From assembly GCA_947624645.1 (NCBI GenBank), contig CANQLG010000003.1:1-64000 (forward strand): a stretch of 64,000 bases of DNA. The letters run 5' to 3'. The notes beneath the pieces were generated by a model. The model was not told the DNA's origin. It saw nothing but the letters and a program-made list of their open reading frames with translations, and made no database searches. Both the position numbers and the translations under genes were made by a program. The first letter of the stretch is position 1. Every line of letters begins with the position of its first letter. Source of the stretch: Candidatus Gastranaerophilales bacterium. Its GTDB lineage: Bacteria; Cyanobacteriota; Vampirovibrionia; Gastranaerophilales; Gastranaerophilaceae. Below are positions 7,020 to 13,813 of this stretch, in pieces.

Positions 7020-7904
7020 ATGAGAAAAAAATTAATTTTATCGATTTTTATATTTTTAATACAGGTTTTTGCTTTTACTTATAACAGTGTATATGCGCAG
7101 ACTGTTGAGATAAGTGATGAAGCTCATCAAAAGGCTGAATATTCCTATAAAAAAGGTATAGAAATGGTAAGAATAAAAGCCTACGACCAGGCAATTACGG
7201 CATTTCAAAATGCCCTTCAATACAATCCTAACTTAACGGATGCTTTATATAATATTGCATCAATATATTGCGCTCAAAAAAAGTATGATGAAGCTTATAA
7301 AACTTATGTGAAGATTATAGAAATTAATCCGTATGATTATGATTCGATACTTCAAGTTGCAAAACTTGCATATAATAAGCAGAATTATTCATTGGCAATG
7401 AAATATTTGAAATATATCCCTGATGATTATGAAAATTATTATATGGTTCAGCAGTTATACAGTGATGCAAAAGAGCAATTTGAAACTCAAAAAAACAGGG
7501 TTGAACGCTCAAAGTTGACTACCGCAAATAAAAATGAACGTGTTTTAATAGATAAATTTAATTCTCCGGCGGGAATGGCTGTTGATTCAAACGGAAATAT
7601 GTACGTGGCAGCATATTCAGATAATGCAATAATAAAAGTTGACAAAAATAAGAATAAAACAAATTACGTAAAAGATTATCTTTTGAATGGACCTGTCGGT
7701 TTGGCTATTGATATGTATGACAATCTTTATGTGGCAAATTACGACGGTAACAATATATTGAAGATAACAAGATCAGGTCATGTCAGTGTATTTATGGATA
7801 AAGTTTCAAAACCTTATTTTTTGTATATAAAAGATGATATTTTATATATTTCAGAGCAAGGTAATGATGTTGTTTTAACTTATAATTTATCAAATCATAA
7901 ATAG
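7020..7904 (+). CDS. secreted TPR and NHL-repeat protein
   Basis: A 294-residue protein with an N-terminal signal peptide (basic start, hydrophobic core, cleavage likely after V-Y-A). Residues about 35-160 form tetratricopeptide repeats (for example A-F-Q-N-A-L-Q-Y-N-P-N). The C-terminal part carries two or three NHL/beta-propeller-like blades (P-A-G-M-A-V-D-S-N-G and P-V-G-L-A-I-D-M-Y-D). Too few blades are present for a closed propeller, so it may dimerise or be a shortened form. The ATG directly follows the gatA stop codon, implying cotranscription. Likely a periplasmic or surface scaffold; no partner is known. Confidence 0.8.
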   Translation: MRKKLILSIFIFLIQVFAFTYNSVYAQTVEISDEAHQKAEYSYKKGIEMVRIKAYDQAITAFQNALQYNPNLTDALYNIASIYCAQKKYDEAYKTYVKIIEINPYDYDSILQVAKLAYNKQNYSLAMKYLKYIPDDYENYYMVQQLYSDAKEQFETQKNRVERSKLTTANKNERVLIDKFNSPAGMAVDSNGNMYVAAYSDNAIIKVDKNKNKTNYVKDYLLNGPVGLAIDMYDNLYVANYDGNNILKITRSGHVSVFMDKVSKPYFLYIKDDILYISEQGNDVVLTYNLSNHK

Positions 7905-7911
7905 ATATCGA

Positions 7912-9342
7912 TTATATAAGACGTTTGGCATAACTGCCACCAACCTCATACAAAGTGGTATTTTGGCGTATAAAGTTATTAAATTCTTTAATTTTATCGG
8001 GTGTGAGCGCTTCATCTTTTTCATAATCGGGGCAGACAGATTCAAAAGCAACAAGCATTCCTTTTGAGTTTTCTGTCAGTTTATTGAAAAATTTAAGCAT
8101 ATTTTCTTGTACAACTTGTTTTGAACCGTTAAAATAATGGGAAAAATAATATGGGTTAGATATTGCCATAACCGGTCGTTGAGATTCTTTACTAAAACAT
8201 TCAATCATTTCATCATATAATTTTTCATCAGAGGAAACTACTTTGCCCTGAACGGGGTCAAAATGGGTTGAATATTCATCAAATACTTCTTTAATACTTT
8301 TGTTTACATCACTGTTTTTAATAATATCAGAGCCTAAAGCGGAATGTGTTTTTTCATCGGAGCCCAGATATACTTTATCCAATTCACTTAATATTTCTTC
8401 GGCTTCGGACAAAATGTCTTCAGGCACCATTGATATACCTCTGATAGCTGTGTCGCCTTTGGTTTCGGCATATTCTCTGGCTCTCCAGTACAAATTGGAA
8501 ACGGTAAACCCTTTTTTGTATTTAATTTTGTTTTGCTTTGCAAATTCGATAACGTTATATGCAAATTCAGGATACAAAGCATTAACTTTTTTTATGAAAT
8601 CAATAATCATTGTTTTTCGTTTTTGTATTGTAGATTCAACAAAATCAATAACGTTAGGCGAGAACGGATTGATTCCGTATAATAGCATATCGCTGTTTTC
8701 GTAACCCAGCATGGAATTGGGAGCCTCATGGGCAAATGATAATTTTATTCCGGGAATGAATTTAACATTTTGGAATTTTTTTGGTTGAGAGGCAATAATT
8801 CTTACGGCGTGCTGCACACCTTCAATTGAGTCTTTATCCGTAAGAGCAAAAATAAAGGGTTTTCCCGTTTCTTTACTGTATTTATCGGCATATTGGGCAA
8901 CACTATCCAATAAATCAATTACATTTTCTTTCCCGTCCGAAAAACTTGTTTGATAATCTAAATCAGCGCAATAAATCCCTGATGCCAAGTTTTTATTTGA
9001 ATATATATAACTGTCTGCTGTCATAGAAGGCAAAATCTGCATAAATTCTCCCGAACTCATAAGACTTGACAGATTTGAAGCCGGGTAATTACAATCCATT
9101 ACTTTATTTAAACCTTCTGCAACTTCGGCAGCATATGGAGTAGGTATTTCATAATTTGATAAATCGGCAATATTATTTTTGTTTGATTTAAATATACGTT
9201 TTAATAGTCCTTTAAAGGCTAAAGGCTGGGCGGAGGAAACAAAGCAGTCAGATGAATTTTGTTTTTTTATAAAGCTAAAATTCTTTGTCTGCTTAGGATA
9301 TGATGAATTAATATGTATATGCGGTTGAATTTTTATTTCCAT
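7912..9342 (-). CDS. degenerate PHP-domain protein (metal ligands lost), N-terminally tagged
   Basis: A 476-residue protein built like the TrpH/YciV-type PHP phosphoesterases, but with the metal-binding positions changed. The first motif, normally D-L-H-x-H-S-x-x-S-D-G, reads D-L-D-Y-Q-T-S-F-S-D-G (127-137). The second, normally T-D-H-D-S-x-x-G, reads T-D-K-D-S-I-E-G (168-175). The third, normally P-G-I-E, reads P-G-I-K (197-200). The C-terminal G-G-S-D-F-H equivalent reads G-G-S-Y-A-K. Residues 1-50 form a low-complexity leader ending L-A-F-K-G, a motif shared with other proteins here. The fold is probably kept and metal catalysis lost; a scaffold or binding role is inference. It converges on the TPR gene with a 7-base gap. 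Confidence 0.8.
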   Translation of the reverse strand: MEIKIQPHIHINSSYPKQTKNFSFIKKQNSSDCFVSSAQPLAFKGLLKRIFKSNKNNIADLSNYEIPTPYAAEVAEGLNKVMDCNYPASNLSSLMSSGEFMQILPSMTADSYIYSNKNLASGIYCADLDYQTSFSDGKENVIDLLDSVAQYADKYSKETGKPFIFALTDKDSIEGVQHAVRIIASQPKKFQNVKFIPGIKLSFAHEAPNSMLGYENSDMLLYGINPFSPNVIDFVESTIQKRKTMIIDFIKKVNALYPEFAYNVIEFAKQNKIKYKKGFTVSNLYWRAREYAETKGDTAIRGISMVPEDILSEAEEILSELDKVYLGSDEKTHSALGSDIIKNSDVNKSIKEVFDEYSTHFDPVQGKVVSSDEKLYDEMIECFSKESQRPVMAISNPYYFSHYFNGSKQVVQENMLKFFNKLTENSKGMLVAFESVCPDYEKDEALTPDKIKEFNNFIRQNTTLYEVGGSYAKRLI

Positions 9343-9357
9343 TAATTAAGTATTCCT

Positions 9358-9645
9358 TTAGTGATTTTTTTTAATATTACCGCTAACTAATAAAACTGCG
9401 GCGCATGCTGCAATGTATTTAAGTAGTGGAATAAACTTTTTGTTTTTTGATTTTTTATTTTGTAAATACAAGGAATATCTTGCACCTTTTCTTATGTCAT
9501 CATTTATTTTGAGCTGTGCTTCCAAATTATATTTTGGCAGCACTGATGCGGGATGAACCAATCTTGAATCAGTATTGGTTTTAAGCTTTTTGGCTGCTGC
9601 AATGTTATTTACGGCGCTTACTTGGGAATTTATATTATTGGACAT
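9358..9645 (-). CDS. small membrane-anchored hypothetical protein
   Basis: A 95-residue protein with a hydrophilic N-terminal two thirds and one hydrophobic segment near the C-terminus (about residues 73-90), flanked by lysines, so probably tail-anchored. The start was chosen at the internal ATG with AAAGG eight bases upstream; a longer frame begins 21 bases earlier. It lies 15 bases upstream of the degenerate PHP gene on the same strand, so the two are probably cotranscribed and may work together. No homologue recognised. Confidence 0.65.
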   Translation of the reverse strand: MSNNINSQVSAVNNIAAAKKLKTNTDSRLVHPASVLPKYNLEAQLKINDDIRKGARYSLYLQNKKSKNKKFIPLLKYIAACAAVLLVSGNIKKNH

Positions 9646-9841
9646 GATATATACCTTTAGCGACATTTATAAGTCAGATAAAAATATATTTTGTTAAAAT
9701 ACGGAGCTGATTTTTTAAAAAAGTTACATTTATTAATAAATAAGATGTAAACTTTTGTTAAAAGGAATGTATAATAAAAGCAAGAAAAAGTCTTTATAAG
9801 CATTAATACAATATAATTTTCTGCATGAGAAGGAGCTAAAA

Positions 9842-12800
9842 GTGAACGTTCAAAAAGGTAATTTAAACCCCCAAAGAGTATCATTTTCAGGTCATAAAAA
9901 GACAATAGACAAGACAGGATATGAGAAACATAATTTCTTCTATTTGTATGATCCTGCAAAATATAGCTGTGAGGTTGAATTATATAATATCAAAAAAGAT
10001 AAAAACGGGAATTATAACATAGCGGAAAAGGGAGCTCCCGCAGCAAAACTGGATATGATTGACGGCGGTATAAGCCAAGATATGTCGGAAATATATGAAA
10101 TAGATTCAACAGAAGGTTTTGCATACAGATTTAAGTTAACGGATAAACAAACAAAAGAGGTTTCGTATGCATACGATAACGGTTCCGTTATAGGTATATT
10201 TGATGATAAAAATACGGATAATAAGTACAATGTAGTACTAAGTAATCGTGCAATAATTAATAAAAACGGCCCGATGCAATTAATAATGCCGGATGAATAT
10301 TATCCCGGTATTGAAAAAAACGGGAATAAGCCTCGATATAATGAAAGTTTGAGAGCGAAAGCATTATCAAGTGTGAGAACTCATGCCAATAAATTGGGCG
10401 GTAATTTTTACGGAATAATAGCAAGGCTGCCGCAAATCCAAAAAGAGGGAATAACAAGAATTGTAGGTACGCCGTACACAAAAGATTTAATATCTTCACA
10501 TAAATATTGGACGGAAAATGCCTATCAGGTATCGCCTGATTTAGGCTCGGAAGAAGATTTTAAAATACTTCAGCAGGAATTATTTAAAAACGGAATAAAT
10601 TGGATATCGGATGCAGCACTTGTAAATGAGGGCTTTGGCGGTATTCATTTGTCGGAATTACTGCGTAAGGGTTCTGATTCGGTATCAAAAAATATGTTCA
10701 GAGCTGAAGAAAGAATAGCTTTAGGAATATTACCCGATAACTCCAAAAATACAAGTATGAAAATAATTAATGCTCCTTATAAAATAAATGATGCGGGAAA
10801 CATTGAAAAAAACGATAAAGGCTATAATCCTGCAAAGCCTACATATATACAATTTTATGATAAAAGACTTGCAAGTAAAGAACAGATAGAATCGGATTCT
10901 CCGATAAGAGGAACCACATACGATAACAAAAATACAGACAATATATATGAAATAACAAAACATGATGATGCCGTATATCCTTTTCCGATAGAAGTAAGTC
11001 CGGTTGAGCTGGAAAGAAACATAAAAAGGGTTTTTGATTCAAAGAAGAAAATCGATTTATCGGATATAGACACAATAAAAAGCCTTACTGATTTTTCTAC
11101 ATTCAGCGTTGTAAATAAAAGCAATGCAAGCGGATTAGAAGTATGGGACGGGAATGTAGATATAGCAAAATTAAATTTTTATAGAAGTGCAAAAGATGAT
11201 TCAAGATTTATCAATATGCCGTTAGCGCAAAGACAAGAAGCAATAGCTGACTTTGATAGAGGTGCATTGGCAGTTCGAGATTATGCAATAAATTCAGGTA
11301 AATATTGGACAAAATTAGCAGATGATGCTCAGTTTGAATATGTATCAACCTCACTGGCACATACTGCTTCTAATGCTCATGAATATATGGAAGCAATTAA
11401 AAAAATGGCAACAAACGGCTTAATGCCTCCAAGCGTTCTTGATAATATTGATGAAGAAGTCATACAAAATGTATTGGATGGAGATTATAATTTAAAAAGA
11501 CTTGATGAATGGGATATGCGCTCTGAAATCAATCCCGATGGGTACGGAAATGAATATACTCTTGATGATTATATTTTAAGACAAACTATGGATGTGCCGT
11601 TGGAAACAATGCCGTTTGCAACAAATTTATTGGGAGTTTTAACTTCACCGTATATTGCAAAAAAAGCTAATACTGAAGAGGAACTCGGTGTATCAAGATA
11701 TGATATTATGAAAGCAGGGAATCCTAATTTACCGGATAAATATTCTAATGTTTATTCTCAAGTTGAAGAAATTTATTTAAAAAATATAGTTCCCGTTATT
11801 AAGTCAATAGTAAAAGATATTCCGGGAATTGAAGAAGATGGGGAAATAAGCGATTATGGCAAGTATGTTATATCGGAAATTACGCCCGAGATAACAAAAT
11901 ATATATTTGTAAAAGCATTAAATCCGAGAGCAAAAATTTCAATTGACAGTGATTATCATATAGATTTTTCAAAAGCCGATCCTGAAGAGATAACAATGCA
12001 ATCAATCGGGATTCCATACAGCGGAAAAACCTCCGAACAAGAAGCTCAAATATTGGTAAATGTTTTAAAATCGGGAATAAAAAATGTTCTATACTCAAAT
12101 GATATTGCTGATATTAAAGAAAAAATGTCAGAAAGATTCAGATATCGCAGTTTAAATGATTTTAAAGTTGCAGAAATGATAATCGACAGAACCGAATCAG
12201 GACTCGGGTGGAGAATAGATGCAGCAAAAGATATATCGGCAATAGATGCCGTTCGTTCCGACGCCGATAGTATGACTCAGGCGTGGAAAAATGTTATTGA
12301 TTTTTGGAAATCATATAATCAGGCAGTATTGACCGTAAATCCTCATGCATATACGACTGCCGAAATTACCGATTTATATGATTTATTCAAAGATAATAAG
12401 AGCAATATGTTTGAAAATGACGGAGATGCAGAAAGAAAGTTTATTCAAGAAACAGGTATTACGGCTGTTGCAAATTATAATTACTTTTTCTCGCTATTAC
12501 CTGACTTATTTGCAAATGCATCGTTTGAAAACGGTACGCCAAGTTGGATGTCGGCTCAAGAGATAAACAAAGAATTAAGAAACAAACTGGATGAGGGCTG
12601 GTGCCATGATGAAAGAGTAAATCCGGGATTCTTATTTCAAAGTCCCGAAGATGGAGTTGCCAATTCCTATACTTTTGTCGGAAACCATGATAAACCTCGT
12701 GCACTTCATTGCTTGGCACTTGATATGAATTTATTTAATTCTGATTTTTCAAGTGAAGACCATAAAACAAGAGCTGCAAAATGTTTAATGAAAAATAAAT

Positions 12801-13813
12801 CAAATATTGATTATGATAAAGTTAATCCGATGGCAATAGCAATGGGCGAAAGATTAAATATTGCTTTTGATGAATTGCTAAAGGATAAAGAATTAAAATC
12901 CGAGATAAAAACAGCTGTAAGCCAATTGTCATCGGGAACATTTAAAGGGAAAAATTTTGATGCCGCTGCCTTTGGTACACGTCCGTTTGAAGTGGCAATA
13001 AAAAGTGTATTGGATCAGGCAGAATACAACAGCGGCAATAAAATTAATAACAGGGATGAGCTTGAAGCAAAAGTTCTTGAATCTGTATTAACTCCTGCTT
13101 TTGACAGATTTTATTCAATATATAAATTGTTGATAACACTGCCGGGAAGCCCTACCGATTTTGCGGGCGATAGAGTTGGAGCCAGCGGTTATGAAACAAA
13201 AGCTAAAAATTATCATCAACAAAACAGAAATGTTATCCGTTGGGAATGGTTGAATGATTCTCAAGATAACAGATATAAATTTGTAAGAGAATTTTATGAA
13301 AAAATGAATGAAATTGCAAATTTAAGGCATCAAGAAAGTTTAAGTGCCTTAAATGACGGAGCAACGGTTACATTGCCTATCATCAAAATTTCAAAAGATA
13401 AGGACGGCAAAACTCAAGTCAATACTAATGATAATATTCAGGCAATGCTCAGATATAATGATTCAGGCTCTGTTGTATTATCATTGCATGATTTGTCGGG
13501 AGCAAGCTCTCCATATACATCTACAATGGATAGAAAAGAAACTAAAACAGGTACTTTAGCAGACAGTCCGGATAACAGAATTGTTTTATCTTCAGAATAT
13601 ATAAATGCAAAACAAGGATTAAAACATGGAATGGCTGTCGGTACAAGATTCAAAAATATAAGAACTTCCGATAATTCTGTATATAAAATTGCTAAAATGG
13701 TTAAAAACGGTAAGGAATATTACTATTTAAAACGAGAAACTGCACAAGGCAGAGAAATTCCGATAACAATTAAACCGGAAGATTTAAATACGCTGATTTT
13801 ATATAGAGAATAG
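9842..13813 (+). CDS. very large GH13-like (alpha-amylase superfamily) protein, N-terminally tagged
   Basis: A 1323-residue protein. A beta-sandwich-like N-terminal region is followed by a GH13 barrel: region I near residue 256 (S-D-A-A-L-V-N-E), region II G-W-R-I-D-A-A-K with nucleophile D793, region III T-A-E-I-T with acid/base E841, and region IV G-N-H-D with D950. The downstream G-S-P-T-D-F-A-G-D-R and Y-H-Q-Q-N-R also fit the family. All three catalytic carboxylates are present. About 530 residues separate regions I and II, far more than usual, so domain B is greatly enlarged, as in some trehalose-forming members. No signal peptide: the N-terminus is M-N-V-Q followed by R-V-S-F-S-G at 12-17. 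A GTG start with AAGGAG seven bases before it is clear. Substrate unknown. Confidence 0.85.
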   Translation: MNVQKGNLNPQRVSFSGHKKTIDKTGYEKHNFFYLYDPAKYSCEVELYNIKKDKNGNYNIAEKGAPAAKLDMIDGGISQDMSEIYEIDSTEGFAYRFKLTDKQTKEVSYAYDNGSVIGIFDDKNTDNKYNVVLSNRAIINKNGPMQLIMPDEYYPGIEKNGNKPRYNESLRAKALSSVRTHANKLGGNFYGIIARLPQIQKEGITRIVGTPYTKDLISSHKYWTENAYQVSPDLGSEEDFKILQQELFKNGINWISDAALVNEGFGGIHLSELLRKGSDSVSKNMFRAEERIALGILPDNSKNTSMKIINAPYKINDAGNIEKNDKGYNPAKPTYIQFYDKRLASKEQIESDSPIRGTTYDNKNTDNIYEITKHDDAVYPFPIEVSPVELERNIKRVFDSKKKIDLSDIDTIKSLTDFSTFSVVNKSNASGLEVWDGNVDIAKLNFYRSAKDDSRFINMPLAQRQEAIADFDRGALAVRDYAINSGKYWTKLADDAQFEYVSTSLAHTASNAHEYMEAIKKMATNGLMPPSVLDNIDEEVIQNVLDGDYNLKRLDEWDMRSEINPDGYGNEYTLDDYILRQTMDVPLETMPFATNLLGVLTSPYIAKKANTEEELGVSRYDIMKAGNPNLPDKYSNVYSQVEEIYLKNIVPVIKSIVKDIPGIEEDGEISDYGKYVISEITPEITKYIFVKALNPRAKISIDSDYHIDFSKADPEEITMQSIGIPYSGKTSEQEAQILVNVLKSGIKNVLYSNDIADIKEKMSERFRYRSLNDFKVAEMIIDRTESGLGWRIDAAKDISAIDAVRSDADSMTQAWKNVIDFWKSYNQAVLTVNPHAYTTAEITDLYDLFKDNKSNMFENDGDAERKFIQETGITAVANYNYFFSLLPDLFANASFENGTPSWMSAQEINKELRNKLDEGWCHDERVNPGFLFQSPEDGVANSYTFVGNHDKPRALHCLALDMNLFNSDFSSEDHKTRAAKCLMKNKSNIDYDKVNPMAIAMGERLNIAFDELLKDKELKSEIKTAVSQLSSGTFKGKNFDAAAFGTRPFEVAIKSVLDQAEYNSGNKINNRDELEAKVLESVLTPAFDRFYSIYKLLITLPGSPTDFAGDRVGASGYETKAKNYHQQNRNVIRWEWLNDSQDNRYKFVREFYEKMNEIANLRHQESLSALNDGATVTLPIIKISKDKDGKTQVNTNDNIQAMLRYNDSGSVVLSLHDLSGASSPYTSTMDRKETKTGTLADSPDNRIVLSSEYINAKQGLKHGMAVGTRFKNIRTSDNSVYKIAKMVKNGKEYYYLKRETAQGREIPITIKPEDLNTLILYRE

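Follow-up and report, generated by a model that had tools for sequence, protein, structure and literature searches.

The 476-residue protein encoded on the minus strand at positions 7912..9342 of the window, the 64,000-nucleotide stretch of Candidatus Gastranaerophilales DNA that we analyzed (assembly GCA_947624645.1, contig CANQLG010000003.1), is probably a soluble pseudo-phosphoesterase that acts by binding and has basic side chains in place of the metals. This pseudo-PHP protein, referred to here as P, belongs to the PHP superfamily by fold and by descent, the latter traced through its relatives, and the metal cage of RNase AM/TrpH-type PHP proteins (HxH, D, H, E, H, DxH) is missing from its sequence.

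The PHP fold and its metal-ligand positions

An AlphaFold2 model of P, built without templates from 37 orthologues of which none has intact ligands, consists of a low-confidence tail (residues 1-64) followed by a PHP barrel that runs to the C-terminus and carries a helical insert at about residues 229-320. The mean pLDDT is 75 and much of the barrel lies at about 84-97, with low values in the tail, at residues 135-138 and in parts of the insert (300-346). A Foldseek search of the PDB with the model returned 9etk (RNase AM) at an E-value of 2.7e-9, then 2yb1 and 3e0f, with the next entry at 0.015. VIA-align gave Z scores of 16.4 for 9etk, 15.1 for both 2yb1 and 3o0f, and 14.3 for 7ug9, with the PHP domains of polymerases at about 10-11; PHP chains filled the top 22 rows (Z 9.4-16.4), and the first non-PHP row had a Z score of 7.3. 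An intact paralogue (L038), modeled likewise from its own 26-row alignment, matched the same PDB entries at Z 16.8-18.4. The predicted structure of P shows an RNase AM/TrpH-type PHP barrel; it was on the presence of a PHP barrel that the preliminary description of this DNA had staked its reading of the ORF.

The query P had no direct match to Pfam PF02811 above the cut-off, the best value among the 37 members being an E-value of 0.082, and comparison of the P sequence with Pfam, NCBIfam and PDB sequences gave no significant PHP match; the sub-threshold matches of residues 163-208 were to RNase RNM and nucleoside bisphosphatase models. Recognition of P as a PHP protein therefore rests on the model and on its relatives. 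Profile-profile comparison aligned P with the sister set over 386 columns (E 2.5e-80) and with the paralogues at E 4e-54, and 11 of the 15 paralogues match Pfam PHP. The PF02811 cut-off is an aid to recognition and does not define membership in the PHP superfamily. No polymerase domain was found in P, which is a stand-alone 476-residue ORF and not a DnaE/PolC-type polymerase chain.

The substitutions at the metal-binding motifs (all on the minus strand) are the same four that had been noted before, D-x-Q, T-D-K-D, P-G-I-K and Y-A-K. Motif I (8950..8958) reads D129-Y-Q131 for H-x-H, motif II (8830..8841) reads T168-D-K170-D171 for TDHD, motif III (8743..8754) reads P197-G-I-K200 for PGxE, and the last motif (7924..7938) reads G469-S-Y471-A-K473 for G-x-D-x-H. 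To these we add a fifth, in which the histidine of A-H-P is replaced by N396 (S395-N396-P397, 8152..8160). Eight ligands can be tested across the alignment, corresponding to cage positions 1, 2, 3, 4, 5, 7, 8 and 9 in a published numbering (PMC3666897). Among the 37 rows of the P clade, position 1 is always aspartate (D129), position 2 is glutamine in 29 and histidine in two, and position 3 is mostly serine, asparagine or lysine, with aspartate in three. Position 4 (residue 170) is arginine or lysine in 32 rows and histidine in one, and position 5 (residue 200) is lysine or arginine in all 37. The histidine of position 7 is missing in 37/37 (S/A/N/D instead), as is the aspartate of position 8 (F/L/Y), while position 9 is mostly K/N/T, with one histidine. 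Thirty rows keep none of the eight ligands and seven keep one, in contrast to a full set in 22 of 26 sisters, which come mostly from other genera, and in all 16 more distant relatives. The query retains a single canonical ligand, D136 of SFSDG, which 34 of the 37 clade members lack. Cage position 6, a histidine in some PHP proteins and D218 in P, is uninformative because most intact sisters already have glutamate there. P has also lost an H-Q pair (H412/Q413 in L038) whose conservation among intact relatives is at least 90%.

Of 50 columns that are at least 90% conserved in intact sisters, P keeps 29 and replaces 16. The 16 include all eight ligands (hypergeometric p 2.4e-5, a value that is indicative only, as the sequences are not independent of one another and the identity of the ligands was known in advance). 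In the aligned sequences, scaffold columns are kept and replaced columns concentrate at the catalytic center. Of the scaffold motifs named earlier, SFSDG is one only in part, given the loss of D136 in most of the clade.

The canonical ligands were not seen at shifted positions in the alignment of relatives; their presence at such positions had been singled out beforehand as adverse to this reading. Even so, P might bind metal through shifted or new ligands, such as H178 and H205 together with D129 and D/E218. H178 is found in 32 of 37 members, where it replaces a glutamate conserved in the sisters, H205 is present in at least 94% of P sequences, D129 is acidic, and position 218 is mostly so. 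We nevertheless regard such a site as very unlikely: the fixed or nearly fixed Lys/Arg residues at cage positions 4 and 5 would repel metal, and His205 already occurs in many intact sisters that have the full cage.

The mechanism that we favor for P is that an ionic network replaces the metal cage, with K200 and K/R170 as its positive partners and the invariant D129 as the negative one. There is a structural precedent for such an arrangement: variant polymerase PHP domains most often replace their ligands by arginine, arginines 10 and 203 of E. coli Pol III are listed at metal positions, and Barros and colleagues describe arginine replacement in variant PHP domains as structurally conservative (PMC3666897). 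With an ionic network in place of the cage, P would therefore not hydrolyze phosphoesters and would work by binding. A binding role is suggested because the chemistry appears to be lost while selection on the old site and the insert is strong. P would most likely serve as an adaptor or regulator that recognizes a protein or an anionic ligand, and the recognition surface may be formed by the remodeled mouth of the barrel and the strongly conserved helical insert (NLYWRAREYAETKGDTAI).

An alternative is that P has gained a new, metal-free catalysis at the remodeled site, using D129, K200 and Y124 or the newly conserved N271, S370 and E466. The old site has not been randomly eroded, with D129, K/R200 and P438 each present in 37/37 and 25 other positions newly fixed in the P clade. 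The residues at 136, 396 and 473, all former ligand positions, are free to vary, however, unlike those of a working active site, and no metal-free enzyme is known to us among PHP relatives. We consider this alternative unlikely, and we retain the binding role as the preferred reading of P.

Conservation of P and its locus

Some match to P occurs in 38 of the 41 genomes of this Gastranaerophilales genus and an orthologue in 37 (one of them cut by a contig end), counts that rest on metagenome assemblies of varying completeness. One genome (G027) has paralogue matches only, because its contig ends beside the GH13 gene described below. A comparison across 383 genomes of the order gave weaker matches beyond the genus, and these are the PHP relatives used here as sisters. 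A single-protein scan of the genome contigs with P found nothing; an alignment-based scan of the contigs yielded 58 loci. In a tree built without the ligand columns, P forms one clade (SH-aLRT 100). The sequences show that the ligand positions were replaced in the whole P clade, which is one clade and occurs in this genus only.

The gene order around P is conserved and consists of gatA, a TPR/NHL-repeat gene (7020..7904, plus strand) that is convergent with P, P itself, a 102-residue ORF (9358..9666, minus) and a gene for a GH13-like giant with an alpha-amylase domain match (9842..13813, plus). The 102-residue ORF shares the strand of P, sits just upstream of it across a gap of 15 bp, and encodes a weakly conserved protein with a hydrophobic segment at its C-terminal side. 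P was previously said to be followed by the GH13-like giant, which is accurate only in plus-strand coordinates; the giant is encoded on the other strand, upstream of P and divergent from it, with the 102-residue ORF in between. The TPR/NHL gene accompanies P in 34 of 37 genomes and the GH13 gene in 33. In two genomes (G005 and G019) P is kept with gatA and the TPR/NHL gene, and the GH13 gene is located elsewhere, accompanied by the 102-residue gene. The GH13 gene is thus a usual but not an invariable neighbor of P, and we did not adopt a functional tie between the two given its separation from gatA, TPR/NHL and P in these genomes. In genus g2, the TPR/NHL homologue has a PHP sister about 3-6 kb away, an arrangement that fits descent in place and does not prove it.

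P is dispensable in some species, since two genomes (G021, locus L104, and G036, locus L106) have the usual neighbors without P, about 0.5 kb separating the TPR/NHL and GH13 genes. In two further genomes (G008 and G027) a contig end falls at the expected place of P.

The N-terminal tail of P (residues 1-64; 9151..9342, minus) has pLDDT values under 50 and contains a short AFKG motif. A strict [SATP]FxG motif is present in 19 of 36 clade tails versus 4% of shuffled tails, and this FxG motif is possibly a targeting signal. An FxG motif is common to the N-terminal tails of P and of the GH13-like giant (SFSG; 9842-9920, plus).

Estimates of dN/dS for P (NG86) were 0.07-0.18 in the closest pairs, more distant pairs being near or beyond saturation at synonymous sites, and the tail evolved faster than the core in 5 of 6 pairs examined. 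These substitution patterns show that the gene is under purifying selection. It might still be supposed that P is what remains of a once active PHP gene in decay, considering that partial ligand losses in two sister proteins (L086 and L094) show that the family degenerates and that G021 and G036 lack P although the rest of the locus is intact. We rejected decay on the dN/dS values, from which it follows that P is not a decaying gene; moreover, the ORF is intact in the 37 genomes apart from the contig-end cut, and identical replacement residues are fixed throughout the genus. Decay is accordingly the least credible of the alternatives. The earlier proposal that the fold was kept while metal chemistry was lost gains support from the purifying selection and the genus-wide conservation, metal and activity being probably absent. 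By its sequence, P is a pseudoenzyme in the sense that its catalytic residues are lost and its gene is under purifying selection.

Pseudoenzymes commonly act by regulating an active paralogue, and P could be the catalytically dead partner of an active PHP protein in the same cell. Three genomes of the genus (G005, G038 and G006) do carry an intact copy of the sister type in addition. Most of the genus lacks such a copy, however, and the window's own genome (99.8% complete) has no second relative of P at E-values up to 1, which makes this mode of action highly improbable for P.

Intact sisters and a nucleotidyltransferase-like neighbor

An N-terminal hydrophobic segment (at least 1.6 on the Kyte-Doolittle scale in a 19-residue window) is present in 16 of 26 sisters versus 0 of 36 P proteins, with medians of 1.68 and 0.42, and in the sisters it presumably serves as a membrane anchor. 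For most of the sisters from outside the genus, and for L039 inside it, an adjoining gene on the same strand belongs to one family, which carries the motif GYDxxCSVGxxxAxPGSDxDKAYI. The motif resembles a nucleotidyltransferase signature, and from it the family is read as nucleotidyltransferase-like; the family had no Pfam match. Members lie at L119 10543-11667, L124 4903-6453, L128 4850-6436 and L121 2073-3197, and in several loci (L119, L124 and L128) the PHP and nucleotidyltransferase-like ORFs overlap or abut. The family profile was restricted to the core region with PHP ORFs removed, and an unrestricted iterated profile was discarded after it drew in PHP proteins. P has no such neighbor. 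The window does contain a lone nucleotidyltransferase-like gene (535-1758, plus), but we rejected a tie between it and P, as other genomes have the gene only patchily and without linkage to P.

Two sisters, L086 (G081) with 4/8 ligands and L094 (G078) with 3/8, lie inside clades of intact proteins with starred support and, by their sequences, are independent partial ligand losses outside the P clade; L084 and L087 each miss one ligand. In G078 the PHP protein L094 and its neighbor, in which GGPLDR replaces GSDxDK, both have changed motifs (L122, 5658-7019 and 7019-8173). Correlated motif loss in the two genes is suggestive but not strict, as in G319 only the nucleotidyltransferase-like neighbor has a changed motif.

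We put forward, tentatively and with somewhat more doubt than conviction, that Gastranaerophilales have an undescribed two-gene system in which a membrane-anchored PHP phosphoesterase is coupled to a nucleotidyltransferase-like protein. One genus would have lost the metal cage together with the partner gene and the membrane segment, and would then have turned the PHP half into a soluble, metal-free binder; in another genome both halves would have lost their motifs together.

A dispersed repeat of about 81 bases, with a predicted hairpin of -14 kcal/mol, has 18 matches in G038, eight in G037, nine in G030 and none in the window's genome. It occurs at L031 564-644, at L039/L128/L190 and at other places in these three genomes. 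Copies fall in short ORFs or outside coding sequence, and in G038 two PHP-family proteins also carry the repeat in frame within their N-terminal tails.

Comparison with known PHP proteins

Known examples of inactive PHP domains come mainly from replicative polymerases. P is a conserved, ligand-less PHP protein that stands by itself, and together with its intact relatives in sister genera it provides a before-and-after series for the conversion of a multinuclear metal enzyme into a binding protein, and with the independent partial losses elsewhere the order of ligand loss becomes open to study. The comparison further suggests that uncultured gut bacteria carry a PHP-nucleotidyltransferase gene pair that has no annotation.

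The best fold matches of P, the RNase AM/TrpH (YciV) and Cv1693-type phosphoesterases (9etk, 7ug9 and 2yb1), have the same order of motifs. P differs from them in lacking the metal cage, in having much longer stretches between motifs and in having about 120 residues before motif I. The intact Gastranaerophilales sisters (L038 and most of L084-L103) share the scaffold motifs and the insert with P, at roughly 27-34% identity over the 386 homologous columns; unlike P, they retain the full set of metal ligands, and most of them have a hydrophobic segment at the N-terminus and a nucleotidyltransferase-like neighbor.

The PHP domain of the E. coli DNA polymerase III alpha subunit (PMC3666897) resembles P in that the barrel is kept and ligands are lost, and in both proteins the residues that adjoin the ligands stay conserved. 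In the polymerase, basic residues replace ligands and occupy the metal positions, a placement that the sequence of P suggests by analogy. The polymerase PHP is, however, a domain of a larger enzyme with 5 of 9 ligands replaced, whereas P stands alone, has no polymerase part and keeps at most one of eight.
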